From Arthrobacter antibioticus (GTDB lineage: Bacteria > Actinomycetota > Actinomycetes > Actinomycetales > Micrococcaceae): a stretch of DNA of 64,000 nt. Below, in pieces: positions 1 to 57,467 of this stretch; within the stretch, counting starts at the first letter, position 1; every line of letters starts with the position of its first letter. The notes under the pieces were generated by a model that was given only the letters and a program-made list of their open reading frames with translations, searched no databases and had not been told where the DNA came from. Location of the stretch: assembly GCF_030063205.1 (NCBI RefSeq), contig NZ_JASISQ010000009.1:62001-126000 (forward strand). Reading direction: 5' to 3'. A program made the translations under genes and the position numbers.

Positions 1-480
1 GACACAAAAAATCAGTATCTAGACGCCTTCACATGAACAAGCCCCACGGGCTCTGCGAGGAAGCACCGCTCCTGGAGGCAAAAGACTTTTGAGAGACGTG
101 TTCCTCTTGTGTTCTCGGTAATCGGTCTTGCGTATGTCGTCGTGCTGGGCATCCAAATCGAACTGGACCGGCAACGTATGAAAGAGGCGGTTATAATCAA
201 CGTTAAGTCCAGTGGCGGGGAGGTCATGAGGATTGTTTGGCCCGCTCCCAGAGAAAAATCCGGGTACGCCGTAGTTATGTTCGATGGCCAGCGAAGTGAA
301 TGTCTGCTGCATCTTTTGGATCGGGATCCGTCCGTTTTCAAGTGCGAGCCGTCTGTCAAGCGTCAAGGAGGTACCGGTTGAACTTCCATGGTCTTTGCCC
401 TAGCTGAGACGCAAGGGCCCGGCTATCGGTCAGATCCCACGCTACATAGGCCCACGAGCCGGGTCTCACCTACACCACAA
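1..480. other. No confident gene
   Basis: Several short overlapping open frames exist on both strands, the longest about 115 codons. None has a recognisable domain or a convincing ribosome binding site, and their translations are low in family-like character. The stretch could hold the end of a gene lying to the left of the window. I see nothing supportable here. Confidence 0.4.
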
Positions 481-507
481 CACGATTGAAGCCAAATGTT
501 ATTATAA

Positions 508-671
508 TAAATAATTATGTCATGACGTAATGAAAGACAGCCATAATTATTTAGATCTATGCTTCAATGAAATAGTGAGGCAACTGAACCACCGCCTTGG
601 GGACCGGTGAGATTCGATTCTAGTGAAGAAATAGGGATGATTAAATAATTACGTCAGGACATAATGAAAGA
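508..671. repeat. Repeats upstream of parA (centromere or operator)
   Basis: A 12-bp motif TAAATAATTATG occurs at 508-519, as its reverse complement at 542-553, and as TAAATAATTACG at 642-653. A fourth, inverted copy lies at 1825-1836, just after the parB-like gene. The first and third copies are the starts of a 28-bp direct repeat (510-537 and 644-671) with three mismatches, ending in TAATGAAAGA. The copies bracket the parAB operon, as centromere or autorepressor sites usually do. The role is inferred from position. Confidence 0.6.
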
Positions 672-728
672 TTGACGTATAGACGTACATCTGTCATTCT
701 TTAAGTAAATATTCTTCAAGGAGGGCTT

Positions 729-1505
729 ATGTCGACGGTGATAACAGCGGTGGGAAACCGTAAGGGTGGTGTTGGTAAGACATCAGTGACCCTCGGTCTC
801 GCTATTGGGTTGAGCCTGCTGGGGAAACGAGTTCTCGTCGTTGATCTTGATCCACAGGCCAACGCTACGACAGCACTAGAAGCCGAGGGTGAATTTAATA
901 TCTTTGATGTCCTTTATGGGGGAGAGGCCGGCACTCTTGGGCAGGCCATCGTCGCTACTTCTTGGTTGGGCATTGATGCAGTGCCTGGCTCCGAAAGCTT
1001 GTCACGCATCGAGTCCGAAGTGCTCATGACACCTGAATTAAGGCTAAAAACGGCTGCGTGGACCTCAGTAGAGCTCGAAAAGTACGACCACATTCTGATC
1101 GATCTCCCTCCGGCCCTAGGCCGACTCACTCTTAACGGCCTGATTTGGGCAGATCAAGTCATTGCAGTCACTGAAGCCGCGGCGTTCTCCGTAAGGGGAG
1201 TGACTGAATTTCTGGAAACTGTAGCCAAAGTCCAGTCATTACCCCATCTGAACCCGGAGCTTAAATTCGCTGGCATCATCATCAACAAAACTAGTGCACC
1301 GTTGACGGGGGAGCATTCCTACCAAATAGGTGAACTCCAGGCCGAGTATGGTGACAGCGTGATGATGCCAGCCGTACCTCAACGGACAGCCATGCAGGAC
1401 TCCGTTAGCTCACGAACGCCACTAACAAAATTGTCCGGTCCAGGTGCCGCTGCTCTGACGGAGATTTTCGTGAAGCACGCACGACGATTAAATGGGGAGA
1501 AATAA
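729..1505 (+). CDS. parA: ParA-family partition ATPase
   Basis: This 258-residue protein is a deviant Walker-A ATPase of the ParA/MinD family that drives segregation of plasmid copies over the nucleoid. The N-terminus has the signature KGGVGKTS at residues 12-19, followed by VDLDPQAN at about 38-45 and a Walker-B-like ILIDLPPALG near residue 125. No N-terminal DNA-binding domain is present, so it is a short type Ib ParA. The start is preceded by AAGGAGGG at 719-726. It overlaps the next gene by one base, forming a parAB operon. The AT-rich repeats upstream are the likely binding sites of its partner. Confidence 0.9.
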   Translation: MSTVITAVGNRKGGVGKTSVTLGLAIGLSLLGKRVLVVDLDPQANATTALEAEGEFNIFDVLYGGEAGTLGQAIVATSWLGIDAVPGSESLSRIESEVLMTPELRLKTAAWTSVELEKYDHILIDLPPALGRLTLNGLIWADQVIAVTEAAAFSVRGVTEFLETVAKVQSLPHLNPELKFAGIIINKTSAPLTGEHSYQIGELQAEYGDSVMMPAVPQRTAMQDSVSSRTPLTKLSGPGAAALTEIFVKHARRLNGEK

Positions 1506-1813
1506 TGGCATCGATTGAACGCAAATCATCAATTCGTAAAGCGCCGATTGCGGATGTTGTCGAGTCACTGACGAGGCCGTCAGAGACCATATCATCCGAG
1601 CAAGGTATGGATGGACGTACCAGGCTCGAAGAGCGTAGTGAGGTAATTCGCCCCGGCCCTGGCCGGCCCCGATCCAAGCGACGTATGGAGCCCTTCTCGT
1701 CCAAGATAGAAATTAGCCTACGAGACGATCTGGACGACTATCTTGCACAGCATAGGATGACAGTTGTCGACTTTCTGGACGAAGCATTTAGGGACAGGTT
1801 ACAAAAAAAATAA
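1505..1813 (+). CDS. Small ParB-like partition protein
   Basis: This 102-residue basic protein is translationally coupled to parA, its ATG overlapping the parA stop. The first 60 residues are charged and probably flexible. They include a PGPGRPRSKRR stretch resembling an AT-hook or arginine finger that could contact ParA or DNA. Residues 62-100 (roughly FSSKIEISLRDDLDDYLAQ) fit a ribbon-helix-helix fold, the usual DNA-binding fold of the centromere-binding partner in type Ib systems. The family call rests on size, position and this pattern. The inverted 12-bp motif at 1825-1836 lies right after its stop. Confidence 0.7.
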   Translation: MASIERKSSIRKAPIADVVESLTRPSETISSEQGMDGRTRLEERSEVIRPGPGRPRSKRRMEPFSSKIEISLRDDLDDYLAQHRMTVVDFLDEAFRDRLQKK

Positions 1814-1824
1814 TTATATCTTTA

Positions 1825-1836
1825 CATAATTATTTA
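1825..1836 (-). repeat. Fourth copy of the parAB 12-bp motif
   Basis: CATAATTATTTA is the exact reverse complement of the motif at 508-519. It lies 12 bases after the parB-like stop codon in an A/T-rich tract. Confidence 0.5.
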
Positions 1837-1982
1837 TTTTTATATTCGCTGCTTTGCCCAGATTCTCCGGGAGGTGAATCTCTGTCAGTAGTGAATGGTC
1901 GCAATGAGGATTCTTATCAGTTCGGGTTTTTTCAATTAGTCATTGGGGTTATCGGAGCTGTGGCTGGCGCGAGGCGCTTGGT

Positions 1983-2123
1983 AGTGTCGCGCAACAGTGG
2001 GTGCCTACCGCGACTCCATTTTTTTGTTTATGGGACATGACTGCAAGTCAGTGACGCACGTGAATTACATGGAATCGTAAAGTGTCTCGATCAGTTGTCA
2101 CGCAACCCTAGGGCAGACCCCCT
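1983..2123 (+). other. res-like site copy 1 (S1)
   Basis: This 141-bp stretch is clearly homologous to the region upstream of the resolvase at 29.5-30.1 kb. It begins with AGTGTCGCGCAACAGTGG, shares GCCTACCGC, and ends with AAGTGTCTCGATC followed by a half-site and CCCTAGGG. The crossover-like part is TGTCACGCAACCC (2096-2108), central TA, then 2111-2123. An extra half-site TGTCTCGATCAGT lies at 2083-2095. It has the same orientation as the copy at 30115-30254. No resolvase gene is next to it. Confidence 0.7.
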
Positions 2124-2206
2124 GCTAACCAGCGCCGACGATATGATGGCTACCCATACCACCGGGGCAGACGCTGCAGAGCTCCTGAATTGTCTCGTCG
2201 ATACCG

Positions 2207-3209
2207 CTAGGCAAGACAGGCGACGCCTCGAGAGCGTGTTTGCCATTGTCGGTGTGATGGCGCCGCCGTTTTGTGGGCGGCAGCGTCGGGTAACGAGCCG
2301 GAATTTTCACCATAGTAGATGCGCTCAAATTCCTCTGGAGTCTGGTGACCCAAAGAAGAATGCAAGCGAAGGTTGTTGTACCAATGGACCCAGTCAAAGA
2401 CGATCTCTACGACGTCAGATTCGGTCTTCAACGCACCGCTGCGGAAGGGCGATCCCTTCGCCACGGCTTCGTTCTTAAACAGGCCCATGACCATTTCTGC
2501 GGCGGCATTATAGTAAGCGTCGCCGCCGCTGCCAATCGAAGGCACCAGTCCCTCAATTTCCAGGGTGTCGGTGTAGCGGATCAAAGTATATTGGCTGCCG
2601 GCATCTGAGTGATGTAAAGCCCCTTGTCAACAGGTCTATTACTGTGTTTTCGACGCCACAGCGCCATTTTCAGGCATTGCTCCTCGAACGCTGTGTCCTT
2701 CACGGTGGAGGTTTCCCACTCCACGATGGCCCTCGAATATAGGTCAATCACCAAAGCCACGTAGACGAAGCCGGAATACACCGGGACATATGTGAAGTCC
2801 GTGACCCAGATGCGGTTGGGGGTGTTGGCGCTGAAGTTCCGGTTCAGAAGGTCTCCGGCACGTTTGCAGTCCTTGGCGGGGATGGTGGTGCGGGTCTTGC
2901 GCCCCCGGATCAGGCCGTTCATGCCTTCGTCACGCATGAGCCGGTCCACGGTGTGTTTGGAGACCACTGGGAAGTCGTTGCGGCGCAACCAGGCCGTCAT
3001 TTTCCGGCGGCCGTAGAGGATTGCTGGCCTCGGTCTTCCCTTACGGTCTTATTCTTTGAGGCTGCGTAACGTGTCAATGACCTTCGCGTCCTCGATGGCC
3101 CGCAGGGCCGGCAGTCGTGTTTTCCAGGCTCGGTAGGTTCGTGCGGCGACCTGCACCCCCTGCTCACGCAGAGAGGTACAGATCGACTCTTTACACATGA
3201 TCTTTGCAT
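2207..3209 (-). pseudogene. IS3 transposase OrfB, frameshifted
   Basis: The DDE transposase is broken into at least two frames. Bases 3000-2581 encode the middle, with RIWVTDFTYVPVYSGFVYVAL covering the first catalytic Asp and VIDLYSRAIVEWE the start of the core. Bases 2584-2207 encode the end, with the K-E region NEAVAKG and HWYNNLRLHSSLG. The usual DxYDNAxAE motif reads DAYYNAAAE. The N-terminal part is scattered over 3000-3209. No functional protein is expected. Confidence 0.8.
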
Positions 3210-3218
3210 CGCTGTTGG

Positions 3219-3545
3219 TCAACGAAACGGCAGATTAGCGGCGGCGAGGGTCGAGCTCCCTCGTGAAAAAATCGATGCCGCTTTCAGGATTTCGTTAGCT
3301 TCCGTCAAGTCCCGATTTTCGACCCGCAACGCCTTGAGCTCATCAAGTTCAGCGGTCGTCGGCCCCTCCTTCACACCGGTATCGACCTGGGATTGGAGCA
3401 CCCAGCGCCGCAATGATTTGGGGCCGACATCAAGCTTCGGGGCCAGGGCCTTGCAGGCTGCAAACACGGAGGGATATTCGGAGAGTCGGTCATTGATCAT
3501 CCGCACGGCACGGTCGGAGACTTCGGCAGGGTATTTTTTGGGCAT
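3219..3545 (-). pseudogene. IS3 OrfA, frame-shifted end
   Basis: This is a helix-turn-helix transposase subunit of about 108 residues starting at ATG 3545. It has the IS3 OrfA pattern: YPAEVSDRAVRMI at the start, then SLRRWVLQ and the leucine-zipper-like stretch ELKALRVENRDLTEANEILKAAS. The normal ending FxRELDPRRR is found in the neighbouring frame just after IFSRG, so an indel near 3270 has shifted the last 15 codons. It belongs to the decayed element covering 2207-3596. Confidence 0.7.
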
Positions 3546-3851
3546 GGTTGCTATCTTTCTCAAGAAAGACAGCGGCATCAAATCTGGGACAGTTCACTAA
3601 AGACTATTCGAATGGTCAGTTGACCGCCAAAAAGCGAGTTTTTCTGGCAGAAACAACCGAATATTACTGCCCTTTTGGTTAGTTTGATGCAGAAATTTCA
3701 TCTGTAGAATCTTCTTTCCAAGGAGAGGCCCCACGAGTTTCTAGTTTTTCTGAGCAAGGTCATATATGCTCTTCGAAACAACTCAAAAGTACCGAAATTG
3801 TGGCGTAAAGTTTCAGTTTTAACATTTTGGACAAATCTCTTTGGGGTAAAT

Positions 3852-4751
3852 TTGGCTATTGCTGTGGCTATAAAAAATTTAAGTCGAAACTATCGTGAAG
3901 TTAAAGCTCTTTCAGAGATTAATCTTTCACTGGAGTCTGGTGAAGTTCTTGGGCTTCTAGGTCCAAATGGTGCGGGAAAGACTACTTTAATTCGTATCCT
4001 TCAAGGCGTTTTGCAACCGAGCCAAGGATCAGTAGAAATCTGGGGGTCAAACCCTAGCGCGTCTTTAGTGCGTACGAAATGTGGTAACACACCACAGGAC
4101 GATGCCATTCCAGAAGGACTCACTGTTAACGAAGCCCTATCTTATGTGGCACGACACTACCCTGCGCCTCGATCTCTTGGGTCAATCCTCGAGCAATTTA
4201 GAATCCAGGACATTGCGAAACAACGTATGTCGAAACTCTCGGGCGGTCAACGAAGACGCGTGTCAGTTGCCATGGCATTCATTGGCTCCCCATCATTAGT
4301 ACTGCTAGATGAACCAACAGCGGGGCTCGACGTTCAGGCGAGACGGGAAATAATTGAAACTATCCGATACGAGCTTTCTCGGGGAGTTACTGCCGTCATT
4401 ACGAGCCACTATCTTGACGATATTGAGGCATTGGCAGGAACTGTAGCGGTACTCCAAGCTGGCTACTTGCGCACATCAGGTCCATTGGACAAATTTGTCG
4501 GAAAAACCGATGATACCGTCATAACAATTCACAGTCTCTTTCCATCACAAGTGGCAAATTTTTTCTCTGATCTTGATAGGTATGATATTCAAGATAATCT
4601 CATACGTGTCAAAACGACTCAACCCGAACTGATACTTCACAATCTCCACACGTCTTTTGTAGAATTTGAAATTCGCTCCTTAGAGCGTGGAAATCTTGAA
4701 GAAGCTTTTGTTGGTCTCTTGCGAACAGACAGGAGTTCAAGTGACAGCTGA
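3852..4751 (+). CDS. ABC transporter ATPase of the azole-peptide cluster
   Basis: This ABC ATPase of about 299 residues energises export of the modified peptide and may give self-protection. It has Walker A GPNGAGKTT, the signature LSGGQRRRVS and Walker B LVLLDEPTAGLD. Its C-terminal 90 residues look like the usual accessory domain of drug and peptide exporters. I chose the TTG at 3852 behind GGGGTAA; the frame stays open back to 3798 and a GTG at 3864 is also possible. It overlaps the permease by 11 bases. It is the first gene of a run in which every gene is adjacent or overlapping, and it matches the ABC pair of the plantazolicin cluster. Base composition is more AT-rich than the flanks. 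Confidence 0.88.
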   Translation: MAIAVAIKNLSRNYREVKALSEINLSLESGEVLGLLGPNGAGKTTLIRILQGVLQPSQGSVEIWGSNPSASLVRTKCGNTPQDDAIPEGLTVNEALSYVARHYPAPRSLGSILEQFRIQDIAKQRMSKLSGGQRRRVSVAMAFIGSPSLVLLDEPTAGLDVQARREIIETIRYELSRGVTAVITSHYLDDIEALAGTVAVLQAGYLRTSGPLDKFVGKTDDTVITIHSLFPSQVANFFSDLDRYDIQDNLIRVKTTQPELILHNLHTSFVEFEIRSLERGNLEEAFVGLLRTDRSSSDS

Positions 4752-5511
4752 AACAGTCAATACTTTCCGACTTGGTCTCACACATGCCCACTACCAGTTC
4801 CTGGATCGGATTCGATCGCCATTTAGTTTGGTACTCGGGCTCGGGGCGCCTGTAATGACCTTCACATTCTTCATCGTGCCACAACGTGCACTTGCAAACG
4901 ACCCAGGTATCGCAACCGCGGCACTTGTGGCGTTCTGCGTTTTTGCAGTCATGGCAAACTCCCTTTTTGGATTCGCAGTAGAAATCGCACAGAATCGGGA
5001 AAAAACGTGGGGCGTATTTCTAAAGTCGCTTCCGGGATCAGTTTTGTCAAGATTACTGGGCTACGTGCTTTCCGCTGGATCGCTGGCGATTCTTTCAATT
5101 ATTCCGCTACTAGTAGTGGCGTTCCTGACCACTGAAGCCCGCATTGATGGAAAATTCTGGATACCCGGTCTATTAACACTCGTACTTACCAGTGCTCCCT
5201 TTATGCTGATAAGCGCCGCAATTGGTTTCATTGTCTCTGCACGTACATCGGTTGCTATCGTTCAGGTGCTAATGCTTGGTCTTGCTTTTGCAGGCGGGCT
5301 ATTTATGCCACCGAGCGCGTTTCCTCCATGGTTGGATGTTGTTTCTACTCTCTTGCCTTCGAGAAGCGCACTGGAATTGAGTTTGTGGGCCGCCACCGGT
5401 GGGAGCTTCCCTATAAATCACGCATTGATTTGGTTGGTTTGGATGATAATTTCCTTGGCAGCAGCCTTGGCATGTGCAACTTGGGACCGTACTAGAAGGG
5501 AGAGCCGATAA
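4741..5511 (+). CDS. ABC-2 type permease
   Basis: This 256-residue integral membrane protein has about six hydrophobic segments, the architecture of ABC-2 drug exporters (DrrB, NodJ-like). It is the membrane partner of the preceding ATPase. The GTG start at 4741 is supported by AGGAG seven bases upstream and by overlap with the ATPase stop. A motif near residues 190-205 (GLAFAGGLFMPPSAFPPWL) is typical of the last loop of this family. Substrate specificity is inferred from the cluster. Confidence 0.85.
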   Translation: MTAETVNTFRLGLTHAHYQFLDRIRSPFSLVLGLGAPVMTFTFFIVPQRALANDPGIATAALVAFCVFAVMANSLFGFAVEIAQNREKTWGVFLKSLPGSVLSRLLGYVLSAGSLAILSIIPLLVVAFLTTEARIDGKFWIPGLLTLVLTSAPFMLISAAIGFIVSARTSVAIVQVLMLGLAFAGGLFMPPSAFPPWLDVVSTLLPSRSALELSLWAATGGSFPINHALIWLVWMIISLAAALACATWDRTRRESR

Positions 5512-5512
5512 C

Positions 5513-6196
5513 GTGGCTGTTAAATATTGGGGAGCCAGATCTGAGATTTTTACCAGTCGCTTTGATCCGTCACTCAACATGCAGATCGCGGATCTAGCTG
5601 CGCCTGGAGGTCCACTAGACAGCGACGATTGTCCTAAGTGGTGGGACGAGAAAGCGCCCACCATAATTCTTTCTATTCGAAGATACGACCTCAATGACCA
5701 GCTGGGTGTTAGAGAGGCGAGGATTCTGGAACGTGCTTCACCGGCAGTCATTCTACGTTGCTCTCCATTGGACAGGAGTATTCCTATTTATAGAGAGTGG
5801 TCTTCGTATGGGGGCCTGTTAGCGACGTCCTTTGACCCAACGGGTGTTGCATGGCTTGCTCTGGATGACCTAGTAGCCGCAATGACAAAGATGTCATCGG
5901 CAATTGAGAATAGAGCCGGCAAAGCCTATGACATCACCGGACCTCGGAAGTTTTCTATGAATGAAATGGCCGATATATTTGCCAATCAACTGGGCTCTAG
6001 TGTTTCCGCAGAGTATGTATCCCCTGAGGAAATGATGAAGTACTTGGTTCAGAATGGCGTCGATAAAGAATTCGCTAGATGGACCGTAGAGCTTCAGGCC
6101 GCAACCTCGGATACGCGTTTACCGGATTCCTCCACCACATTAGAGCGAATTTTGGATCGACCACTCACAAATCCTTTCGATTCTGTAAATATTTAG
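5513..6196 (+). CDS. Truncated NmrA-like protein in the azole-peptide operon
   Basis: This 227-residue protein starts at GTG 5513, one base after the permease stop, behind AGAAGGGAGAG. Residues 100-225 align by eye with the back half of NmrA or SDR-type NAD(P)-binding proteins (WLALDDLVAAM, then AYDITGPRKFSMNEMADIFANQLG). The N-terminal half lacks any GxxGxxG Rossmann motif. It is therefore either non-catalytic or a reductase that has lost its cofactor site. No gene of this kind is in the plantazolicin set I know, so its role is open: regulation, immunity or a tailoring step. Confidence 0.65.
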   Translation: MAVKYWGARSEIFTSRFDPSLNMQIADLAAPGGPLDSDDCPKWWDEKAPTIILSIRRYDLNDQLGVREARILERASPAVILRCSPLDRSIPIYREWSSYGGLLATSFDPTGVAWLALDDLVAAMTKMSSAIENRAGKAYDITGPRKFSMNEMADIFANQLGSSVSAEYVSPEEMMKYLVQNGVDKEFARWTVELQAATSDTRLPDSSTTLERILDRPLTNPFDSVNI

Positions 6197-6211
6197 TTAG
6201 GAAAGATAAGT

Positions 6212-7243
6212 ATGGTTTCTCTTCTATATTCATTTTCATTGCAAAAATCACTTGCCGTAGGCAAGGAATCAGTATTTGCATTGGAGAGTGAGCATGCAAT
6301 CAGACTTAGCGCTGCTGGCATGCCAGAATTTATAACAAAGCTGAACGAAATAGGTCTTGATGCAGAATCAGGATTATCATGTGCTGAGCTATGCCACGCA
6401 CTCAAAGTCAATGAAGACGAGCTTCAACCGATGCTGGACAAGCTTGTCGAAGTCGGAGTCCTAACTGTAAATGATGGGGCTAGCACCTCCTTCGCTGTGC
6501 TTGCTGCACAACGATCCGGTGGGGGCCATAAGCCTGCTGATGTTCAAGCCAATCTTGATCGAACATCTATCAGGATTCTTTCCAAGAGAGACTCCCCACT
6601 TACAGATGCAATCGCTGCTGCCTTGAATCGGGTTGGGGTGAGCGTGTCTGATAGCGAGTCTGCGGATTTGACTATTGTTATAGGAACATCTGCACTCGAT
6701 ACAGATCTCTTCGAATTCAACCAAAAAGCCTTGTCGGACATTGCGATCGGACCGTGGCTAGCCGTAGTACCCTTCGATGGTGGAAATGCCTGGGTTGGGC
6801 CATTCCAACTGCCTCACAGATCGGCATGCTACACCTGTTATCGTCTACGGCGGTCAGGCAACTTTGGTGATGAAGTCGTTCGCGGAGAGCTACTCGAGCT
6901 TACCGGTCTTCCTACTCCAAATTCCGTTATCCTCGATCACCCGGTCACTTTAGTCCAGGCAGGTATCGTCGCAAATATTGTGTCAGATTGGGCTGCACTA
7001 AGGGAGTATGCGCCATCAGCTATCCCAGGTGCGGTATCGAGGATTACTCTTGACACATCGGGAATTTCGGTTGATTCGAGTCGTGTTCTGCGAGTACCTC
7101 GCTGCCCAGAATGCTCGCCCGCCCGAGATATAGGATCTCCTCAAGTATGGTTCCATCGGGCAGACACTGATCTTGATTTCGAACATGAAGTCAACATGAG
7201 TATTGGAGTTCCTGTGGGTGCTTCGGGGTCTAACAATGAGTAG
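6212..7243 (+). CDS. TOMM cyclodehydratase C protein (leader-binding E1-like)
   Basis: This 343-residue protein is the partner that binds the precursor leader and presents the core to YcaO. Its first 90 residues fit a winged-helix leader-recognition domain (RiPP recognition element). A degenerate E1/ThiF-like domain follows, with two CxxC pairs, CYTC near residue 209 and CPEC near 298, that form the usual structural zinc site. RBS AGGAAAG precedes ATG 6212. The stop overlaps the YcaO start by 8 bases, as expected for a stoichiometric C-D pair. It is the counterpart of plantazolicin PznC. Confidence 0.85.
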   Translation: MVSLLYSFSLQKSLAVGKESVFALESEHAIRLSAAGMPEFITKLNEIGLDAESGLSCAELCHALKVNEDELQPMLDKLVEVGVLTVNDGASTSFAVLAAQRSGGGHKPADVQANLDRTSIRILSKRDSPLTDAIAAALNRVGVSVSDSESADLTIVIGTSALDTDLFEFNQKALSDIAIGPWLAVVPFDGGNAWVGPFQLPHRSACYTCYRLRRSGNFGDEVVRGELLELTGLPTPNSVILDHPVTLVQAGIVANIVSDWAALREYAPSAIPGAVSRITLDTSGISVDSSRVLRVPRCPECSPARDIGSPQVWFHRADTDLDFEHEVNMSIGVPVGASGSNNE

Positions 7244-8573
7244 TTGGACTGCGCTTAAAGATTCACATCGAGTGCTAGAGACATTTGCTGACCCTTATGT
7301 AGGTCTAGTAAGTCAAGAATATGAGAAACTGAATGACTTAGACGATGTTCGTGGCTTTTCCTTCGGATCCCATGCTACAGATTCGCTTCACCTTCTGGGT
7401 GCCCGGGGGAACGCCTATAACGGTGGGGGAGCTAGGAGCCGACTAGCTGCTCGTCTGGCTAGCATTGGAGAAACTGTCGAGCGCTATAGTGCCGCTTACC
7501 TTCCAACTATCTCGGATGATTTATTCAAGGATAGCCAAGCTTCGGTGGTAGGCAAGGGCGGCGAAGTCTGGACGCCAGAGACACTCGGCCTATTTGCCCC
7601 AGAACAGTACGATAGCCCGGGATTCAAATATAAAAGGCTTCCACAAAATACCGATATTGTGTGGCGAAGAGGAGCTAACCTATCCACAGGAACTGAAGTT
7701 CTGGTTCCAGCCCAGTTCCTTTATTTTGTTCCGGATTGGCCAGGCGAACCGGTCTTGGGATATGCGACAAGCAACGGGCTGGCTTGTGGAATTCAAGATG
7801 TTGAGGCTTGCCTCTCCGGACTTTTTGAGGCAGTCGAGCGCGACGCATTTATGATCGCATGGTACAACAGGCTAAGTATGCCTCTAATCGACATCGAGTC
7901 CTCTCCGATCCTTTCGGCACTTGTGAATCGGCATGTTGAGACTACTGGGCTGAAATTGGAACTGATTGACATGAGTGCCTTTTGTGGGTTACCTGCAGTG
8001 GTCGCAATTGTAAGAAATCCCAATACCAGTGTCGCACCATTCGCTATTGGAGCGTCATGTGCTGCGACTATAGAACGCGCAGCTGAAAAGGCTATGTTTG
8101 AAGGCTTACACACTCGAGCCTGGATAAAATCTGAGCAGAGAGCAGACAACGTTCTCTTTAGTGACGATTGGACTAGAGACATTAATAGCTTTGAGGATCA
8201 TGTGAAGCTTTACGCTAATCCGGAATTCACGCACCATGCAGATTTCTTGGATGCATCTGACAAGCGAACTAGGGTCGAGGATATCCCGAGATTCGATGAC
8301 AGTGATCCCGAAATACTTTGGGAAACCCTAGTCTCACATTTGACGAACCGAGGACTGGAAGTGGGCGTCTTTGACATGACCAGTCCCGACGTCCGCGAGG
8401 GCGGCGCCTCAGTCATGAGAGTTTTGATTAAGGGTCTGATGCAACTGGACGCTCCTTATGGAGGACGAATGTATGGGGGTGGACGTGTACTCAAACACGC
8501 TCATGACCTAGGTATCTCAACAAAAGTACTGGCCCGTGAAGAACTCAATTCAATTCCTCATCCATTCCCATAA
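7236..8573 (+). CDS. YcaO cyclodehydratase (azoline-forming)
   Basis: This 445-residue YcaO ATP-dependent cyclodehydratase activates backbone amides so that Cys, Ser and Thr side chains close to azoline rings. Visible family features are GGGARSRLAARLASIGETVERY near residue 63, the ATP-site stretch EAVERDAFMIAWYN, and AEKAMFEGLHTRAW. The C-terminus ends SIPHPFP, the proline-rich tail that azoline-forming YcaO enzymes place in the active site. The start at 7236 overlaps the upstream gene. It is the counterpart of plantazolicin PznD. Confidence 0.92.
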   Translation: MSSWTALKDSHRVLETFADPYVGLVSQEYEKLNDLDDVRGFSFGSHATDSLHLLGARGNAYNGGGARSRLAARLASIGETVERYSAAYLPTISDDLFKDSQASVVGKGGEVWTPETLGLFAPEQYDSPGFKYKRLPQNTDIVWRRGANLSTGTEVLVPAQFLYFVPDWPGEPVLGYATSNGLACGIQDVEACLSGLFEAVERDAFMIAWYNRLSMPLIDIESSPILSALVNRHVETTGLKLELIDMSAFCGLPAVVAIVRNPNTSVAPFAIGASCAATIERAAEKAMFEGLHTRAWIKSEQRADNVLFSDDWTRDINSFEDHVKLYANPEFTHHADFLDASDKRTRVEDIPRFDDSDPEILWETLVSHLTNRGLEVGVFDMTSPDVREGGASVMRVLIKGLMQLDAPYGGRMYGGGRVLKHAHDLGISTKVLAREELNSIPHPFP

Positions 8574-8584
8574 CGAGGTAAATC

Positions 8585-9418
8585 GTGACTGATATTAAGA
8601 GAACAGATATAGACCGCCACGCTACGAACCTGGCTGACGTCGTTTATGGCAATGAATCCCTCCGATTTGACGACGCCGGTGAGAACTGGTTCGAGGCCAC
8701 CAAAATATACAGGGACTCGATGTCGTGGGACGCCCCAGGGGTCGGAGCTCTGCTCAGATCTCAGGCGTTGCAGAAGATGAGTCAGCGAGCGGGAAAACGC
8801 TATACCAACCGGCCCGTCGTGCGGCTTCCGAAGGCCGCGGAAACGAAGGCTTCGTTTACTGATCTGCTAGCCAATCGATGGAGTGATGATGAATTTGCGC
8901 CAGGTCCCGTTAGCCTTGATGTCGTAACCGCCGTTCTTGAAGCGGGATATGGTGTTATTTCCAGACGAGACGGGTTACGTCGTCCTGTTCCTTCGGGCGG
9001 TGCGTTGTATCCACTGGATCTCTACTTGCTCCCTCGAAATGTCGAGGGTCTTGAGGACGTGATCTACCATTATGATCCTTTCCGTAGACTTCTGGTCGCT
9101 CTGGGTGATTTTGACGATTCAGAATTCTTGAATTCAACGCTTCGGGCCGATGCGCTCGAGAACATGGCATTCTCGGTGGTTGTATCAGCTACATTCTGGC
9201 GCTCTCGTTTCAAATACGGTCCTCGAGCTTACCGTTTCGCCTTTCTGGAGGCGGGCCATATTATGCAGAATATGCTTCTCATGGCGAACGCGCATGGCAT
9301 AGGGGCCAGGCCTTATGGAGGTTTTATCGATGACGAACTAACAGATATTCTCATCGACCAGAATGGAGTGGATGAAGCTCCTATTTATATGCTGACAGCA
9401 GGCCGGCGTGTTGAATGA
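8585..9418 (+). CDS. SagB/McbC-type FMN dehydrogenase
   Basis: This 277-residue nitroreductase-fold protein oxidises azolines to aromatic thiazoles and methyl-oxazoles with FMN. Recognisable parts are RRPVPSGGALYPLDLYLLP near residue 136 and the late stretch FLEAGHIMQNMLLMANAHGIGARPYGGF, typical of SagB/ThcOx. The start is GTG 8585 behind ACGAGGTAAATC. The stop overlaps the next start as ATGA. It corresponds to PznB of plantazolicin. Confidence 0.9.
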   Translation: MTDIKRTDIDRHATNLADVVYGNESLRFDDAGENWFEATKIYRDSMSWDAPGVGALLRSQALQKMSQRAGKRYTNRPVVRLPKAAETKASFTDLLANRWSDDEFAPGPVSLDVVTAVLEAGYGVISRRDGLRRPVPSGGALYPLDLYLLPRNVEGLEDVIYHYDPFRRLLVALGDFDDSEFLNSTLRADALENMAFSVVVSATFWRSRFKYGPRAYRFAFLEAGHIMQNMLLMANAHGIGARPYGGFIDDELTDILIDQNGVDEAPIYMLTAGRRVE

Positions 9419-10083
9419 GTTCTTCCACCGCGGTGCTACTTGGCGCCACGGCCTGTGTACATTTGGCCCTCCCGCTACTCCTTCGCCTGCTAGCAAGGAA
9501 CAAACGTGCGGGAGGCTTATGTTCATGGGGGCGAGCACAGTATCTCTATGATTCGTTCACCTTTGCGCTAGCTCTAGTAGCTGTATGTATCGGGTCGCGC
9601 GTCTTGGGAACCGTGGAATCTATGTGGGGTCCTCGCCCAATTTTGGGTGGAGTAGTCGGTCTCCTTATTGGAGGCTTACTACCTTTTTTGATAGCGGCAC
9701 TGCGCGGTCGCAGGTTGATGTTTTCCAGTGGGCTTCATGAAACCAAATTGAGTTTGCAGTGGTTGATAATGAGCGCGACCGGCGAAGAAATCATTTGGAG
9801 ATGGGTGGCCGTTCAGGCCTGCATATCTCTGGGTTTTTCGAATATCACGTCTTACTTCATTGCTTCAGTCGGTTTTATTGTGGTTCATATTGTGTCTTTT
9901 GGAATGAGATCCGTTCCATATATATCGATATTCACCATATGTGTGGCCCTTGTTGCAATGGATGGGGGCTTGCCAGCGGCCATTATCATGCATGTAATGC
10001 ACAATCTTGTTATTTCAAGAACGGTTTCATCTCATGTTGTAGTCAGAAATGAAGTTGTCCCTCCTCGTACCTCTGAATGGTGA
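9415..10083 (+). CDS. CPBP-family membrane protease (likely leader peptidase)
   Basis: This 222-residue protein has about six membrane segments and the three CPBP (CAAX protease/bacteriocin-processing) motifs: EExxxR as EEIIWR near residue 122, FxxxH as FIVVH near 160, and HxxxN as HVMHN near 197. In azole-peptide clusters it is the candidate that removes the leader after heterocyclisation, like PznE; some family members act in immunity. It is coupled by ATGA to the dehydrogenase gene. Confidence 0.85.
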   Translation: MSSSTAVLLGATACVHLALPLLLRLLARNKRAGGLCSWGRAQYLYDSFTFALALVAVCIGSRVLGTVESMWGPRPILGGVVGLLIGGLLPFLIAALRGRRLMFSSGLHETKLSLQWLIMSATGEEIIWRWVAVQACISLGFSNITSYFIASVGFIVVHIVSFGMRSVPYISIFTICVALVAMDGGLPAAIIMHVMHNLVISRTVSSHVVVRNEVVPPRTSEW

Positions 10084-10098
10084 TAAAGGTAACTAGTG

Positions 10099-10902
10099 AT
10101 GAAATCCTTGCCAAGAAGCTCTCGCCGAAGGAACGCCATACGGTGGTTTGAAGACGAAGATCTTTATCAAATAAGTTCTGCTGTAGATGACCGCGAATCC
10201 GAATTCAGTCAGATTCTTGGTCCAGCCTTTGCCTTGGACCGGTTTGAAAGACTCTTCGGGCGGCCTGCGCGTTCTGTTTTAGATGCGGGCTGCGGCAGTG
10301 GCGCCATGCTTCAAGAATTCAAAAGACTTGGTGTCGTAAATTGCCATGGCTTTGACCCGTCTACTCAAGCGGTTCGTATGGCGGAATGTTCATCCGAAAT
10401 TGTTTGCTGGGTAGGTGAGGCTGAAGAGGCTAGCACTTATGACCATTTGACCGTGCAACCTGACGTGATTGTTGTACACCTCACATTGGCTTTGTGGTCA
10501 GATCCGGTCCAGGGGCTAATCAATCTAGTGAGTGTCTTGCCTGAAGAGGGATTGATTTACGTTATGGATTTATCGAGTGATGCCGAAGGCCTCATTAAGG
10601 CAGGTAGGAATGAGCTCGAATGCGATTATCTCCGGGATCAAATTGATTCATCTTTCAACCTGACGGAAATCCAAGGGGTCCTTGCGATGGCTGCGCCCGG
10701 CTTGGAGATTGAGACTGGAAATGGTCCGATTGGTGGATTTAACCTGCCCGATCAAAAGGCCCAAGAATTATTGATGGGTTTTAGAACAATGGCCGCTTTG
10801 CGGCAGATTTCAACCATGGCTGGATCGGTAGCACCAGATGAGTGTTTCCTTAGTGGTTGGATATTGAAAGGAGGTGAATTGAATGAACGTTCCGTCAGTT
10901 AG
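10099..10902 (+). CDS. SAM-dependent methyltransferase (PznL-like role)
   Basis: This 267-residue class I methyltransferase has a clear motif I, VLDAGCGSGAML near residue 60, then GFDPST and an acidic-Pro region PDVIVVHLTLALW. By analogy with PznL it would dimethylate the N-terminal arginine of the trimmed core, and both precursors here begin their core with Arg. ATG 10099 or the GTG three bases before it follows AAAGGTAA. Its last 20 bases overlap precursor 1, and the precursor ribosome binding site lies inside its coding sequence. Confidence 0.85.
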   Translation: MKSLPRSSRRRNAIRWFEDEDLYQISSAVDDRESEFSQILGPAFALDRFERLFGRPARSVLDAGCGSGAMLQEFKRLGVVNCHGFDPSTQAVRMAECSSEIVCWVGEAEEASTYDHLTVQPDVIVVHLTLALWSDPVQGLINLVSVLPEEGLIYVMDLSSDAEGLIKAGRNELECDYLRDQIDSSFNLTEIQGVLAMAAPGLEIETGNGPIGGFNLPDQKAQELLMGFRTMAALRQISTMAGSVAPDECFLSGWILKGGELNERSVS

Positions 10903-11008
10903 TCAACTGCGCATCACAACCCATGGGCCGTCGAATGAGCTTTTTGAGCCCATGGCCGCTCGCTGCACAACGACTACTCTCATTTCAACGACTTGTACGT
11001 GGGCTTAG
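10883..11008 (+). CDS. Plantazolicin-like precursor peptide 1
   Basis: This 41-residue precursor is too short for standard gene callers. A strong AAAGGAGG lies 8 bases before the ATG at 10883. The leader ends LFEPMAA, the same block that precedes the core of plantazolicin. The predicted core is RCTTTTLISTTCTWA. It shares the plantazolicin plan: Arg, five Cys/Thr, two aliphatic residues, five Ser/Thr/Cys, an aromatic residue. Here the aromatic is Trp and one extra Ala follows. Ten residues can form azoles. It overlaps the methyltransferase end by 20 bases. Confidence 0.92.
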   Translation: MNVPSVSQLRITTHGPSNELFEPMAARCTTTTLISTTCTWA

Positions 11009-11125
11009 CCTGATGTACGAGAGCAGTGCGCTGGTGGACTGATTTGTCGAGTAAGATGTGTCTCCGCTGGTAACTGTTTTCTATGTATCCAATATCGAAT
11101 CTAGAATTGAGAGGAGGTGGAAGAT

Positions 11126-11251
11126 ATTAATATTCCTTCAGTAGTCGAATTGAGTATTACGACACACGGGCCTTCAATTGATTTGTTTGAGCCAATGGCT
11201 GCCCGTTGCACGACAACTACGTTGATTTCTACAACTTCATGTTGGGGATAG
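11126..11251 (+). CDS. Plantazolicin-like precursor peptide 2 (ATT at the start position)
   Basis: This is a second 41-codon precursor copy. The leader again ends LFEPMAA and the core is RCTTTTLISTTSCWG. GGAGG sits 8 bases before codon 1 exactly as in precursor 1, but codon 1 is ATT instead of ATG (11126-11128). The only other in-frame option is GTG 11117, which overlaps the ribosome binding site. It may be read from ATT at low efficiency, or be a silenced duplicate. The codons downstream are intact and the core keeps all ten cyclisable residues, which argues for recent or continuing use. Confidence 0.8.
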   Translation: MNIPSVVELSITTHGPSIDLFEPMAARCTTTTLISTTSCWG

Positions 11252-11336
11252 TTATCAACCGGCATAGTTCATAGGTCTCATTCACGCATTTGGCGATACG
11301 TTCGAGATTCAAGAATTATGTTTTACGGTAGTAGTG

Positions 11337-11371
11337 GAAGAGTCCCCGCGCTCGGTTCGCGGGGACTCTTC
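11337..11371. terminator. Hairpin terminator closing the peptide cluster
   Basis: GAAGAGTCCCCGCG (11337-11350) pairs perfectly with CGCGGGGACTCTTC (11358-11371) around a 7-base loop. It lies between the plus-strand precursor genes and the converging minus-strand gene, and can serve both. Confidence 0.8.
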
Positions 11372-11580
11372 TATGGGAGTTCAGTCAGCGATTTCTCAAT
11401 AACTGCGAGTCTTTCATCGATGGAGTTTAACTTGGTGGTCACTTCATTGATTGACTTGCTAAACTTATCTGAGCTTTCGGCTTGAGCTGTTTTGGTCTTG
11501 GACCAGGACGAGACGCTGTAGGCGGAGTAGCCTAGAGTCGCGATTACAATAATAATTAGAGGAATCCAAAAATAGTCCAT
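11371..11580 (-). CDS. Small membrane protein with coiled-coil tail
   Basis: This 69-residue protein has one N-terminal membrane segment (FWIPLIIIVIATLGYSAYSV) followed by a charged heptad-like tail (SINEVTTKLNSIDERLAVIEKSL) that probably forms a coiled coil in the cytoplasm. It lies 15 bases after the ArsR-type regulator gene on the same strand, so the two form an operon. Such a pair could sense and report membrane state or the peptide product. It has no recognised family name. Confidence 0.65.
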   Translation of the reverse strand: MDYFWIPLIIIVIATLGYSAYSVSSWSKTKTAQAESSDKFSKSINEVTTKLNSIDERLAVIEKSLTELP

Positions 11581-11595
11581 GACTTATCCTATCGA

Positions 11596-11904
11596 TTAAT
11601 CTGATTCAATCGTCAGTGACTGATGAATCGATTCGTTTACCGTGTCAATGTTGATAATTAGGTTGAAATTAACGAGTTCGTATTCTTTAATTGCTTGTCC
11701 AGTTTTTGACAGCTTGAGGTCTCCTTTTACTATTCCACAGTCTTCAAGTTTGGCTAGATGCATATATAGAAGTGGTCGTGATATTCCTACGCGACGCGCG
11801 AGTTCACTGACATGCAATGGACCGTCTGTTAGCTCAGCGATCGCCCGAAGCCTAGTTTCACTGCCTAAAGCAGAAAGAGACTGGACCAACTCTTCGAGTT
11901 TCAT
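11596..11904 (-). CDS. ArsR-type winged-helix regulator
   Basis: This 102-residue winged-helix protein has the ArsR pattern LSALGSETRLRAIAELTDGPLHVSELARRVGISRPLLYMHLAKLEDCGIVKG. No metal-binding cysteine pair is present in helix 3. I start it at ATG 11904 behind GGGAAG; the frame is open to 11961. It converges on the peptide cluster and is the likely cluster regulator, comparable to the ArsR-like gene reported in plantazolicin loci. Confidence 0.8.
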   Translation of the reverse strand: MKLEELVQSLSALGSETRLRAIAELTDGPLHVSELARRVGISRPLLYMHLAKLEDCGIVKGDLKLSKTGQAIKEYELVNFNLIINIDTVNESIHQSLTIESD

Positions 11905-12100
11905 AGCGCTTCCCATCGTTGTCATAATAAACTTACATATGTAGGTTCTTGGTGTCAACATCTAACTGGAAATTGCCTAGATCCCGCGTTTCTTGGTCCG
12001 ACAGAGGGCGGTGCCATACCCTCGAAGCAACAACATAGTTGAATAGAGGAGTCGCTAGTGGGGCGCAAGGCGTTGTCGTTTTCGGATCGGGCGGACACTA

Positions 12101-12666: not shown

Positions 12667-12963
12667 ATGTCTTCTCGACCAACCTATTCCGATGAGTTCA
12701 AAGCTGATGCTGTTGCCTTGGCTGAATCCTCTGGCCGCCCTTTAGCTCTTGTAGCTGCTGAACTCGGCATCTCCCTGACCGCACTCAAACGCTGGATCAA
12801 GCTCTCCCACGAGGGCCACGAAGGCGGCGGCCGGAAACCTGATTTACCCGTGGATACCGCTAAATACAAGGCCATGGAAGTGCGGCTACGTGAGCTTGAA
12901 CGGGAGAATGAATTCCTAAAAAAAGTTTCAGCGTGTCTATCGCCAGAGAACAACGGTAGATGA
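12667..12963 (+). CDS. IS3-family transposase OrfA
   Basis: This 98-residue DNA-binding subunit has a helix-turn-helix (AAELGISLTALKRWIK) and a leucine-zipper region (VRLRELERENEFLKK). The slippery run CTAAAAAAAG at 12916-12925 is where IS3 elements shift by -1 to make OrfAB. The normal OrfA ending SIAREQR is found one frame back, so a single base appears lost near 12934. This also puts OrfB out of the usual -1 register. Confidence 0.8.
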   Translation: MSSRPTYSDEFKADAVALAESSGRPLALVAAELGISLTALKRWIKLSHEGHEGGGRKPDLPVDTAKYKAMEVRLRELERENEFLKKVSACLSPENNGR

Positions 12964-13006
12964 CCTCTATCGTCTTGTTCAGCAGCAGGAGAACGCTGGA
13001 GAAAAA

Positions 13007-13852
13007 GTGGCCTGGATGTGCCGAGAACTACGCGTCCCACGGTCGTCGTATTATCGCTGGAAAGAAGCACCAGATACGCCCACAACCATTCGCCGCCGGG
13101 AGCTGACCGATCAGGTGGAGACTGTCTTTAAATCCTCCGACGGGATCTTTGGCCACCGCATGGTCCACGCAAAACTCAACACAGCCGGTGTTGATATCTC
13201 CGTGGGAACGGTGGCCTCGATCATGGCGGAGAATGGCTGGGCAGCCAGACGAATGCGGGCTTTCAGACGCACCACCATCCCCTCAGACCCGGAGAAAGTC
13301 TTCAAAGACTTGATCGGCCGAGACTTCACCGCTGCAACTCCAGGCACCCGCCTAGTCGGCGACATCACCTACTTGCGCACCGGTGAGGGGTGGCTGTACC
13401 TGGCCACCGTCATCGACCTATGCACCCGTATGATCGTTGGCTGGGCCATGGCAGATCACATGCGTGCCTCCCTGTGTGTCAGCGCGCTGACGATGGCCAG
13501 AGACCGCGGCCATCTACAACGTGGTGGAATTTTTCACAGCGATCATGGCGTGCAATACACCTCCCGTGAACTTGGATCCTGGTGCACTGGCAACAGCATC
13601 CGCCAGTCCATGGGAGCCAAGGGCGTATGTTGGGATAATGCCGTGGCTGAGTCAGTCTTCTCGTCCCTGAAGAACGAGTTCTACCACCACTACAGCTTTG
13701 ACACCCGCCAAGAAGCCAGGCGGGCCACCATGCGCTACATTGAGGTTTTCTACAACCGGTGGAGACCACACACCCACAATGACGGCCTACCGCCGGCAAC
13801 GGCCATGGCCAACTTCACCACCCAAAACCAGCAACAACACCTCGCTGCCTAA
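13007..13852 (+). CDS. IS3-family transposase OrfB
   Basis: This is a DDE integrase-fold transposase of 281 residues from the first ATG. The same frame is open upstream to about 12926 and reads FQRVYRQRTTVDDLYRLV, so the true start is by fusion. The catalytic residues are the Asp of LVGDITYLRT, the Asp of HSDHGVQYTS and the Glu of DNAVAESVFSSLKNE. The C-terminus FYNRWRPHTHNDGLPPATAM is typical of this family. Confidence 0.88.
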   Translation: MAWMCRELRVPRSSYYRWKEAPDTPTTIRRRELTDQVETVFKSSDGIFGHRMVHAKLNTAGVDISVGTVASIMAENGWAARRMRAFRRTTIPSDPEKVFKDLIGRDFTAATPGTRLVGDITYLRTGEGWLYLATVIDLCTRMIVGWAMADHMRASLCVSALTMARDRGHLQRGGIFHSDHGVQYTSRELGSWCTGNSIRQSMGAKGVCWDNAVAESVFSSLKNEFYHHYSFDTRQEARRATMRYIEVFYNRWRPHTHNDGLPPATAMANFTTQNQQQHLAA

Positions 13853-49812: not shown

Positions 49813-50070
49813 ATGTCCCTAGTCACTGAAGTCAAGCAATACATTGTTGACAAATTCGCCACCGACATCGCACCGGATGAACTGCCCTCGGACATTGATC
49901 TGCTGTCAACCGGCATCCTGACCAGCGTAACCACGGTCCAACTGCTCGGCTGGTGCGCAAGAACCTACAGGATCCCCATCAACTCCATTTCTATTAACCC
50001 TGAGGAACTGAAAACCCCCGAAGGCATCGCGGGTTTCATCGCGTCAAACCGTACTAACCCAATAGCCTAA
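49813..50070 (+). CDS. Acyl/peptidyl carrier protein
   Basis: This 85-residue carrier protein begins three bases after the adenylation gene. The phosphopantetheine site is GILTSVTTVQL (Ser 38). The usual DSL is LTSV here, with Thr in place of Asp. The flanking helices and length are normal for a free-standing PCP. Confidence 0.82.
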   Translation: MSLVTEVKQYIVDKFATDIAPDELPSDIDLLSTGILTSVTTVQLLGWCARTYRIPINSISINPEELKTPEGIAGFIASNRTNPIA

Positions 50071-50089
50071 CCCGAAGAGGAAATACATT

Positions 50090-50464
50090 ATGTTCACCCG
50101 CTCAAAGAATGAAATCGCTCCCGTCGAATGGGGCAACGGAACCAGCCACCGTCTGCTGGTTGAAGCCGACAACATGGGCTTCGCGGTCGCGCACACCGTT
50201 GTCAGAGCAGGCACTGAGTCCAAGCTGGAATACCGCAGAAACCTTGAGGCCTGCTATTGCATTCATGGATCCGGCAACATCGAGGACACCGAGGGTAACC
50301 GCTTCGAGATCGTACCCGGTGTCGTCTACGCCCTGGATGGCAACGAACCGCACTACCTGCGGGCAGCCGAAGGAGAAGACCTCGAACTCGTCAGTATCTT
50401 CAACCCGCCGATCCGCGGAGATGAGAAGCACACTCTCAGCGACAGCGGATTCAGCACATATTAA
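50090..50464 (+). CDS. Ectoine-synthase-like cupin (EctC family)
   Basis: This 124-residue cupin is close to EctC. It has MGFAVAHTVVRAGTESKLEYRRNLEACYCIHGSG then VPGVVYALDGNEPHYLRA and FNPPIRGDEKH. Glu 53, Tyr 80 and His 88 match the iron ligands of EctC (Glu57, Tyr85, His93) in spacing. EctA, EctB and EctD are absent. It may close a cyclic amidine or do another condensation on a carrier-bound amino acid. Confidence 0.85.
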   Translation: MFTRSKNEIAPVEWGNGTSHRLLVEADNMGFAVAHTVVRAGTESKLEYRRNLEACYCIHGSGNIEDTEGNRFEIVPGVVYALDGNEPHYLRAAEGEDLELVSIFNPPIRGDEKHTLSDSGFSTY

Positions 50465-50474
50465 GGAATCGGCA

Positions 50475-51608
50475 ATGACAACAACGATGACAAACACCCG
50501 ATGGTCCGGTTTCATTGAAGCGTTTGGCGCCACAGGCAACGATCATGCTGAGCACCGCAGCGATGGTCTTGCCGTTGACATGTGGGAACAGTTGTCCGAG
50601 AGCGGAGTCTTCGCAACCTTCGCCGAAGCCGACACAGAGCATGCTGGATTGAAAACTGCTGTCAGCCGCATGCGGGAATTAGGACGAACAAGCCCGGACC
50701 GTGGGCTAACATTCTCGGCGGTGACTCAACTGGCCAGCACCATCTACTGCCTGCGCGCCTTCGCAGACCGCGGCATTCAGGAGCGTTATCTTCCGGAAGC
50801 CGAGACCGGAACTGCCATCAGCGGCCACGCGATCACCGAAGCTGAGGCGGGCTCCGACGTGATGAACATGTCCACTACCGCGACCCGGCACGGTGATCAC
50901 TACGTCCTAACGGGAACGAAGCGTTTCATTACGAACGCCCCGGTGGCTTCGACGCTGGTGGTTTACGCCAAAACCGTTGAGGAGGACGGCTCTGACAAGG
51001 GTCTTTCAGCTTTCCTTGTGGAGACGTCGTGGCATGGAATGGACACCACCGGCGTCATGCCAACAGCGGGGTTGCGGACCTCGCCCATTGGTACGGTCAG
51101 CATGGACCATGTGAAGGTGCCCGCAGGAAACAGGATTGGCCACATCGGTGCCGGATTGCTCATTCTCGATCAGGTCATGAAACGTGAAACCCTCCTTGCC
51201 TTCGCTGCGAACCTCGGAGAGATGGAACAAGTCGTGGCCGACGCCGTTCGGTATGTCAATCAACGTAAACAGTTCGGTGTCACGATCGGCAGCAATCAGC
51301 TGGTGGCAAACCGCATTGTTGAAACACAGGTCGCCATCGAGCTCGGCGGAGCACTACTGAACTCAATTGCTGACCGCCTTGATGGCTTCGAGGACGTGAC
51401 GATTCCCATTGCCGCGGCCAAGATTTTCATCAGTGAGGCCAACGTCCAATCCGTGATCAATGCACTTCAGGTTCACGGTGGAAATGGGTATCTTAGAACC
51501 TCTCCGCTTGCTACTCATCTTTTGGATGCGGTACCAGGGGCGATCTATTCAGGTTCGAATGATCTGCTGCGCACGAAGATTGCCACGATGCTGGGAGTAG
51601 CAACATGA
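50475..51608 (+). CDS. Acyl-CoA dehydrogenase-like flavoenzyme
   Basis: This 377-residue protein starts at ATG 50475 after AAGGAATC. It is an ACAD family flavoprotein with GHAITEAEAGSDVMNMSTTA, the middle beta domain, and YVNQRKQFGVTIGSNQLVAN. Near the end GAIYSGSNDLLRTKI stands where MCAD has YEGTxxIQR, so the classical glutamate base is replaced. Free A domain, PCP and ACAD together are the set used to desaturate prolyl-S-PCP to pyrrole or pyrroline units. Confidence 0.85.
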   Translation: MTTTMTNTRWSGFIEAFGATGNDHAEHRSDGLAVDMWEQLSESGVFATFAEADTEHAGLKTAVSRMRELGRTSPDRGLTFSAVTQLASTIYCLRAFADRGIQERYLPEAETGTAISGHAITEAEAGSDVMNMSTTATRHGDHYVLTGTKRFITNAPVASTLVVYAKTVEEDGSDKGLSAFLVETSWHGMDTTGVMPTAGLRTSPIGTVSMDHVKVPAGNRIGHIGAGLLILDQVMKRETLLAFAANLGEMEQVVADAVRYVNQRKQFGVTIGSNQLVANRIVETQVAIELGGALLNSIADRLDGFEDVTIPIAAAKIFISEANVQSVINALQVHGGNGYLRTSPLATHLLDAVPGAIYSGSNDLLRTKIATMLGVAT

Positions 51609-52270: not shown

Positions 52271-52284
52271 AAAGGCAGAATGAC

Positions 52285-53058: not shown

Positions 53059-53084
53059 TTGAGAGAATTCAATATGATATAGTT

Positions 53085-53100
53085 ATATGCATGTACATGG
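53085..53100. promoter_or_regulatory. MarR operator at the marR start
   Basis: TATATGCATGTACATGG overlaps the start of the MarR gene. It shares TGTACAT with the palindrome at 48346 and fits autoregulation. Confidence 0.5.
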
Positions 53101-53573: not shown

Positions 53574-53578
53574 TCTGG

Positions 53579-53622
53579 AACCCTGCGGGGTTTTTTAATC
53601 TTATACATGTATGCACATGCAA
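53579..53622 (+). terminator. Terminator and operator after marR
   Basis: AACCCTGCGGGGTTTTTT (53579-53596) is a short hairpin with a T run. It is followed by TTATACATGTATGCACATGCA (53602-53622), an operator-like palindrome upstream of the next gene. Confidence 0.6.
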
Positions 53623-53666
53623 ATTTTATGCTATGTGCCACGACTAAGAATGAGGGGTTGTTCAGA

Positions 53667-54802: not shown

Positions 54803-54815
54803 AAGGAACACCATC

Positions 54816-55136: not shown

Positions 55137-55170
55137 TCCTCACTCCCAACATCCTGAAAGGACTCCTAAT

Positions 55171-57455: not shown

Positions 57456-57467
57456 GGAAGTCTGACT

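Follow-up and report, generated by a model that had tools for sequence, protein, structure and literature searches.

A probable plantazolicin-class operon with two precursor genes on a plasmid-like contig of Arthrobacter antibioticus

The operon described here was identified in Arthrobacter antibioticus contig NZ_JASISQ010000009.1. The window is the whole stretch of DNA that was analysed, 64,000 nucleotides corresponding to bases 62001-126000 of the 140,746-base contig, and positions are those of the window unless stated. The operon spans 3852-11251 on the plus strand, with genes tightly packed up to precursor A1, as read from the open reading frame (ORF) list, the DNA and the profile searches. 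Very probably this is an operon of the plantazolicin class that is carried by an Arthrobacter-type plasmid and is most likely functional. It is placed in this class because its precursors belong to TIGR04218, its methyltransferase is nearest to BpumL and BamL, its J-C-D-B-E-L order is that of the Bacillus loci, its YcaO protein falls in a clade supported at 100/100 with the Bacillus enzymes, it is syntenic with a Leifsonia cluster and its cores follow a 5-2-5 plan. A sequence-only reading of the stretch had proposed the functional set of plantazolicin; the ABC transporter pair, C protein, YcaO, SagB-type oxidase, CPBP protease, methyltransferase, precursors and ArsR-type regulator that it listed were all recovered by ORF and profile searches, and YcaO and C best matched the plantazolicin class and not another azole-peptide class. 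That reading is here extended by gene J (5513-6196) and by the finding that precursor A2 has lost its ATG.

The two precursors, A1 and A2, are 41 residues long. A1 comprises the leader MNVPSVSQLRITTHGPSNELFEPMAA and the core RCTTTTLISTTCTWA, A2 the leader INIPSVVELSITTHGPSIDLFEPMAA and the core RCTTTTLISTTSCWG, and the leader ending LFEPMAA before Arg, already noticed in the sequence-only reading, is present in both. Each core is formed by Arg, five Cys/Thr, two aliphatics (Leu-Ile) and five Cys/Ser/Thr, ten Cys/Ser/Thr in total, both fitting the plan R + 5 + 2 + 5; the C-termini are Trp-Ala in A1 and Trp-Gly in A2. Against the curated model TIGR04218 (cut-off 45), A1 scored 49.6 bits in the profile search of window proteins, and the genome search gave 50.9 bits for A2 and 48.4 for A1; with scores over the cut-off the match is therefore not due to chance. 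PMC4603692 describes plantazolicin precursors as having about 45 amino acids and an Arg-initiated core of five heterocyclisable, two nonpolar and five to six heterocyclisable residues, which is the organisation of both peptides. The two cores were identified in none of the other loci compared, nor as text in the literature searched, a search that lay outside supplements and most subscription papers and did not include the published Corynebacterium core. As oxazole-rich natural variants, they can serve to probe the positions of the core that determine how narrow the target range is.

The modification enzymes point to the same class. The D protein was compared by two-sequence BLASTP with that of a Bacillus-type cluster having the exact plantazolicin core RCTCTTIISSSSTF (51%, E 1e-166, 464 bits), and the C protein with the Bacillus C (37%, 3e-76); identity to the Bacillus counterparts was 57% for B, 30-31% for L and 33-34% for the ATPase. 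Among solved structures, L was closest in phmmer to BpumL (9.8e-24) and BamL (1.4e-22), the next solved enzyme being at 9.7e-4; six solved sequences matched under 1e-20, among them BpumL and BamL as well as two that bear only the label 'Methyltransferase domain family' and whose alignment resembles that of BpumL. In PMC4603692 the plantazolicin group is recognised by a D protein in an isofunctional group (BLAST E below 1e-54) and by a plantazolicin-specific N-methyltransferase; the D protein found here lies at 1e-166 from the exact-core cluster and in its clade, and L has the BpumL/BamL likeness. The PxPxP-like tail that had been read at the end of the YcaO protein is PHPFP.

Relatives were collected by a genome-contig scan with a four-row YcaO alignment, in which 93 loci were confirmed and 80 kept. 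Eleven loci were compared gene by gene (L008 and L012 are one place, as are L009 and L010): nine contain one recognisable precursor and two, L103 and L020, none by the motif used. The two Bacillus-type loci (G1492 and G1498) have one precursor each, so that the window contains two and no compared locus showed a second. Two lines, the DegQ family (a match in 9 of 398 genomes and in the B. subtilis control) and the exact plantazolicin core, lead us to infer that G1492 and G1498 are Bacillus. In partly overlapping genome samples, TIGR04218 over cut-off was identified in 3 of 248 genomes of the order (own genome included), 1 of 394 of the class (the own genome), 1 of 249 of the Leifsonia family (the Leifsonia genome itself), 2 of 201 of the genus Corynebacterium and 2 of 44 of the genus taken for Bacillus.

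The YcaO tree comprises 28 rows, selected by the authors from the loci at hand. The window, Leifsonia sp. 71-9 and the two Bacillus exact-core clusters form a clade (100/100), inside which the window groups with Leifsonia (96/91); the Brevibacterium, Corynebacterium, Rothia and Rhodococcus clusters stand apart, and several deeper forks are weak. The Leifsonia row has 307 residues because the gene (L013, 9836-11358) reads in two overlapping frames in a metagenome assembly, either a frameshift or an assembly error. In the same tree the YcaO proteins of Rothia aerolata (L010) and of a Corynebacterium sample genome (G630, L101) are near-identical, with end branches of 0.004 and 0.0075, which in hosts of different orders suggests recent transfer.

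Table 1. Features of the operon and its immediate surroundings in window coordinates.
Feature	Position	Strand	Evidence and remarks
Transposase gene in pieces	2581-3581		IS3 transposase match 84.9%; helix-turn-helix part just below Pfam cut-off
ABC transporter ATPase (exporter)	3852-4751	+	PF00005 110.6 bits, 1.2e-31; Leifsonia sp. 71-9 syntenic homologue 44%; TTG start at 3852, upstream TTG at 3798 also possible
ABC-2 type permease (exporter)	4741-5511	+	PF01061 42.7 bits, 6.2e-11; 59% to Leifsonia
J, short NmrA-type (atypical short-chain dehydrogenase/reductase, SDR) Rossmann protein without GxxGxxG	5513-6196	+	
C protein, leader-binding cyclodehydratase partner	6212-7243	+	TIGR03882 54.6 bits, cut-off 36.9; 37% to Bacillus C
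D protein, YcaO cyclodehydratase	7236-8573	+	TIGR03604 303.3 bits, cut-off 219.25; C-terminus PHPFP
B protein, SagB-type flavin dehydrogenase	8585-9418	+	TIGR03605 109.2 bits, cut-off 78.4; 57% to Bacillus B
E protein, membrane protease of the CPBP family and likely leader peptidase	9415-10083	+	PF02517 34 bits, cut-off 22.4, 3.8e-08
L protein, PznL/BamL-type alpha-N-methyltransferase	10096-10902	+	phmmer BpumL 9.8e-24, BamL 1.4e-22
Precursor A1	10883-11008	+	ATG start; overlaps L 3' end; TIGR04218 over cut-off
Precursor A2	11126-11251	+	No ATG, start placed at ATT; TIGR04218 50.9 bits; codon comparison
17-bp stem-loop, probable terminator between converging genes	11334-11374		-31.6 kcal/mol, z -4.43
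ArsR-type regulator, possible operon regulator	11596-11961	-	PF01022 1.7e-12
Transposase gene, other side of cluster	12667-13852		

By analogy with plantazolicin, A1 and A2 would be made as short precursors whose leader is held by the C protein, while C and D would cyclise core Cys, Ser and Thr residues to azolines and B would oxidise most of these to azoles. E would then cleave after LFEPMAA, L would dimethylate the freed Arg, and the ABC pair would export the product and probably confer immunity. In the literature, PznE is the leader protease and ten cyclodehydrations and nine dehydrogenations take place (PMC5100339), PznL dimethylates Arg and this dimethylation is needed for activity (PMC11285071), and the group is further defined by its polyazole backbone, N,N-dimethyl-Arg and narrow-spectrum antibacterial action (PMC4603692). 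What the sequence demonstrates is the gene content, the homology, the core plan and the conservation of A2; we infer the reactions, their order, the ATT start of A2, the role of J and the activity.

Two products would result, both with the 5-2-5 heterocycle plan, one terminating in Trp-Ala and the other in Trp-Gly. For ten rings (nine of them oxidised) and two methyls, the predicted [M+H]+ is 1488.57 for A1 and 1460.54 for A2. Desmethyl-A1 has the mass of dimethyl-A2, also 1460.54, and therefore only fragment spectra separate them. The same formula applied to the plantazolicin core gives 1336.48, the value of plantazolicin A.

The J protein adjoins C in 9 of the 11 loci related to this one and likewise in the two Bacillus loci. 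It has 227 residues and a Rossmann fold of the NmrA/QOR2 kind; no Pfam family was over cut-off. In a two-sequence comparison it is 35% identical to the Bacillus J (2e-41), and the Brevibacterium and Rothia J proteins align weakly (21-26% identity). With the window J as phmmer query (E 0.01) no J of that branch was found, nor any in the more distant loci; the branch was recovered when the Rothia J served as query. The case for homology between these branches draws on place, length, the G-x-R start and intermediates, and carries less certainty than that for Bacillus and Leifsonia. Kocuria (L020) has a weak match (1.6e-4) away from C. The GxxGxxG nucleotide-binding motif was identified in none of nine J homologues compared over their first 60 residues, G-x-R being in its place; these nine leave out L020, a member of the alignment made for modelling J, and L016, L101 and L102, where J is present as near copies or in the same branch. 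J shares the SDR fold but is not classed as an NAD(P)-binding SDR enzyme, and probably serves the modification complex as a scaffold or non-redox partner. That J is instead an NAD(P)-dependent reductase which actively alters the peptide, for example by reducing one azoline, is possible but rather unlikely: in fold it comes closest to NADPH reductases (QOR2, triphenylmethane reductase and SimC7), but the glycine-rich loop is absent in all nine homologues and the window J is about 50-60 residues shorter than its fold relatives (275-287). The plantazolicin-related literature searched names neither fold nor role for J, a neighbour of C in most related clusters examined that now has a fold and, as a probable non-redox partner, a testable role.

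The second precursor lacks an ATG. Six bases separate its strong ribosome site AGGAGGTG from an ATT, the same spacing as between AAAGGAGGTG and the ATG of A1. The sole in-frame upstream ATG, GTG or TTG is the GTG at 11117, which was considered as a start but lies inside the Shine-Dalgarno sequence; the ATT at 11126 is preferred for this reason, and A2 is probably translated from it. ATT is a rare but known start codon, as in infC of E. coli. Given this probable start, A2 would be made at a lower level than A1. Over the 41 codon positions, A1 and A2 present 10 identical codons, 21 silent and 10 replacing changes (the start being among the latter). When the start codon is left out, nonsynonymous divergence (dN) is 0.17 and the proportion of synonymous differences (pS) 0.84, with synonymous sites saturated, and a binomial test against neutrality gave p 3.6e-07. 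A2 is thus an old copy, long kept under protein-level selection.

Some observations weigh against a functional operon of this class. The permease and E have identities of 24-25% and 28-29% to the Bacillus counterparts, E to the homologue in the same place. TIGR04218 was identified in 1 of 23 genomes of the genus, the window's own, and the other 22, the same-species one included, gave no precursor match, so the cluster may have been acquired recently or only in passing. That A2 lacks an ATG could stem from a function lost not long ago or from an error in the sequence, the locus being available in one copy. A decaying cluster, with A2 a dead copy and the operon perhaps silent between insertion elements, would agree with this lost ATG, with the upstream transposase in pieces and with the lack of a precursor match in the same-species genome. 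It is nevertheless improbable, as the eight longer genes and A1 are uninterrupted, A2 keeps its leader, core plan and A1-like Shine-Dalgarno spacing, and the changes between both copies are mostly silent, although the neutrality test integrates the whole past and is blind to recent loss of A2. It may tentatively be proposed that, across most of the class, the complex maturing plantazolicin has J as a dedicated cofactor-less NmrA-fold member and, jointly, that the cluster makes a set ratio of two plantazolicins through the AUU start of its second template. That the cluster belongs to another class of linear azole peptides (streptolysin S-like, goadsporin-like and others) and resembles plantazolicin in gene content alone is very improbable: C, YcaO and SagB genes are common to several such classes and C weakly matches the SagC family model (2.9e-06), but the TIGR04218 precursors, the BamL-type methyltransferase, the Arg-initiated 5-2-5 cores and the YcaO tree all stand against it.

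The contig is plasmid-like, an Arthrobacter-type replicon by comparison with plasmid pAsp15-1 of Arthrobacter sp. TMP15, with which it shares four stretches (97.2% in the ParA region, 95.1%, 94.9% and 95.7%) in a comparison that left out window 50001-64000 and contig bases 20001-62000. The plasmid claimed in the sequence-only reading is upheld to this extent; the contig ends have no terminal overlap and a closed circle is therefore not demonstrated. Within window 1-25000, 371-2113 alone matches pAsp15-1, whose ParA gene is followed by other genes (first 15,000 bases examined), and the cluster is therefore not seen on that plasmid. A Bacillus-type plantazolicin operon is in this way placed on a plasmid-like actinobacterial contig.

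The greater AT content claimed for the region was borne out, with 48.3% G+C in 3852-11961 versus 52.7% in 1-3600 and 55.3% in 12001-64000, where none of 88 windows of 8,110 bases was as low (minimum 53.9%). The relatives' clusters are higher (Leifsonia, 61.4%) or lower (Bacillus, 34.4%) and composition therefore names no donor. Transposase genes flank the cluster on both sides, as had been read. Terminal repeats of an insertion element (14 exact bases, at least 600 apart) were found on neither side and the two flanks share no blastn match, so a composite transposon is not supported. The low G+C, along with the same-species genome without a precursor match, supports the earlier suggestion of acquisition by the host as a candidate event. 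In the genus, one distant YcaO (26%) was identified in 1 of the 22 other genomes and none closer; one scan of viral contigs for a YcaO relative gave four stretches fitting the pattern, none confirmed. Promoter and terminator consensus scans showed no clear excess over shuffles (10 vs 9.5 and 10 vs 8.0), and the stem-loop downstream of A2 was not among the ten sites listed.

Beside the ArsR-type gene, on the minus strand (11371-11580), is a 69-residue frame with no Pfam family, by eye a one-helix membrane protein, which may take part in regulation or immunity. A second, different YcaO cluster was identified on the minus strand of the same contig outside the window (contig bases 12857-19943, L090). 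Its YcaO scored 208 bits with TIGR03604, just below the cut-off of 219, and it contains two ABC exporters (one scanned, CydD-like), a weak SagB-like dehydrogenase and a CocE/NonD-like hydrolase; a nearby 655-residue protein (L091:2031-3998) is by eye prolyl oligopeptidase-like. Window 62489-63529 encodes a YhcG/PDDEXK nuclease-family protein, and the plasmid matches point to another gene of this type at about 6.8-7.8 kb of the contig.

Among known systems, the Bacillus pzn clusters share with the window the J-C-D-B-E-L order, the LFEPMAA leader end, the Arg start, the 5-2-5 core, a BamL-type methyltransferase and the YcaO clade. They differ in having one precursor, on the opposite strand before J, where the window has two on the same strand after L; the first core block is CTCTT in Bacillus and CTTTT in the window, and the core ends in F and not in WA or WG. 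In Leifsonia sp. 71-9 (core RCSCTTIACCCCSWG) the order is identical, ATPase-permease-J-C-D-B-E-L-A, and YcaO is 60% identical over 297 residues of its larger piece, but there is one precursor, with a Cys-rich second block.

The clusters of Brevibacterium aurantiacum, Rothia aerolata, Corynebacterium (G590 and G630) and Rhodococcus have cores of the type RC[ST]CTTxPCCCC. They share J, C, D, B, a BamL-like methyltransferase and FEPTAAR leaders, and differ in their YcaO branch, an extra membrane protein and the position of L. The Corynebacterium tuberculostearicum cluster (NZ_CP073097.1, L007, 8058-14170) is also plasmid-borne and contains a methyltransferase, the ABC pair, C, B, a YcaO 38.7% identical to that of the window and a FEPTAAR leader; no J was found in it and its core RCSCSSSTCCVLCVKK is outside the 5-2-5 plan. 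Its precursor frame is absent from the (incomplete) PLSDB table. The Arthrobacter operon is thus well supported by its sequence as a new representative of an established class; its nearest kin is the Bacillus version, and it has two templates in place of one.

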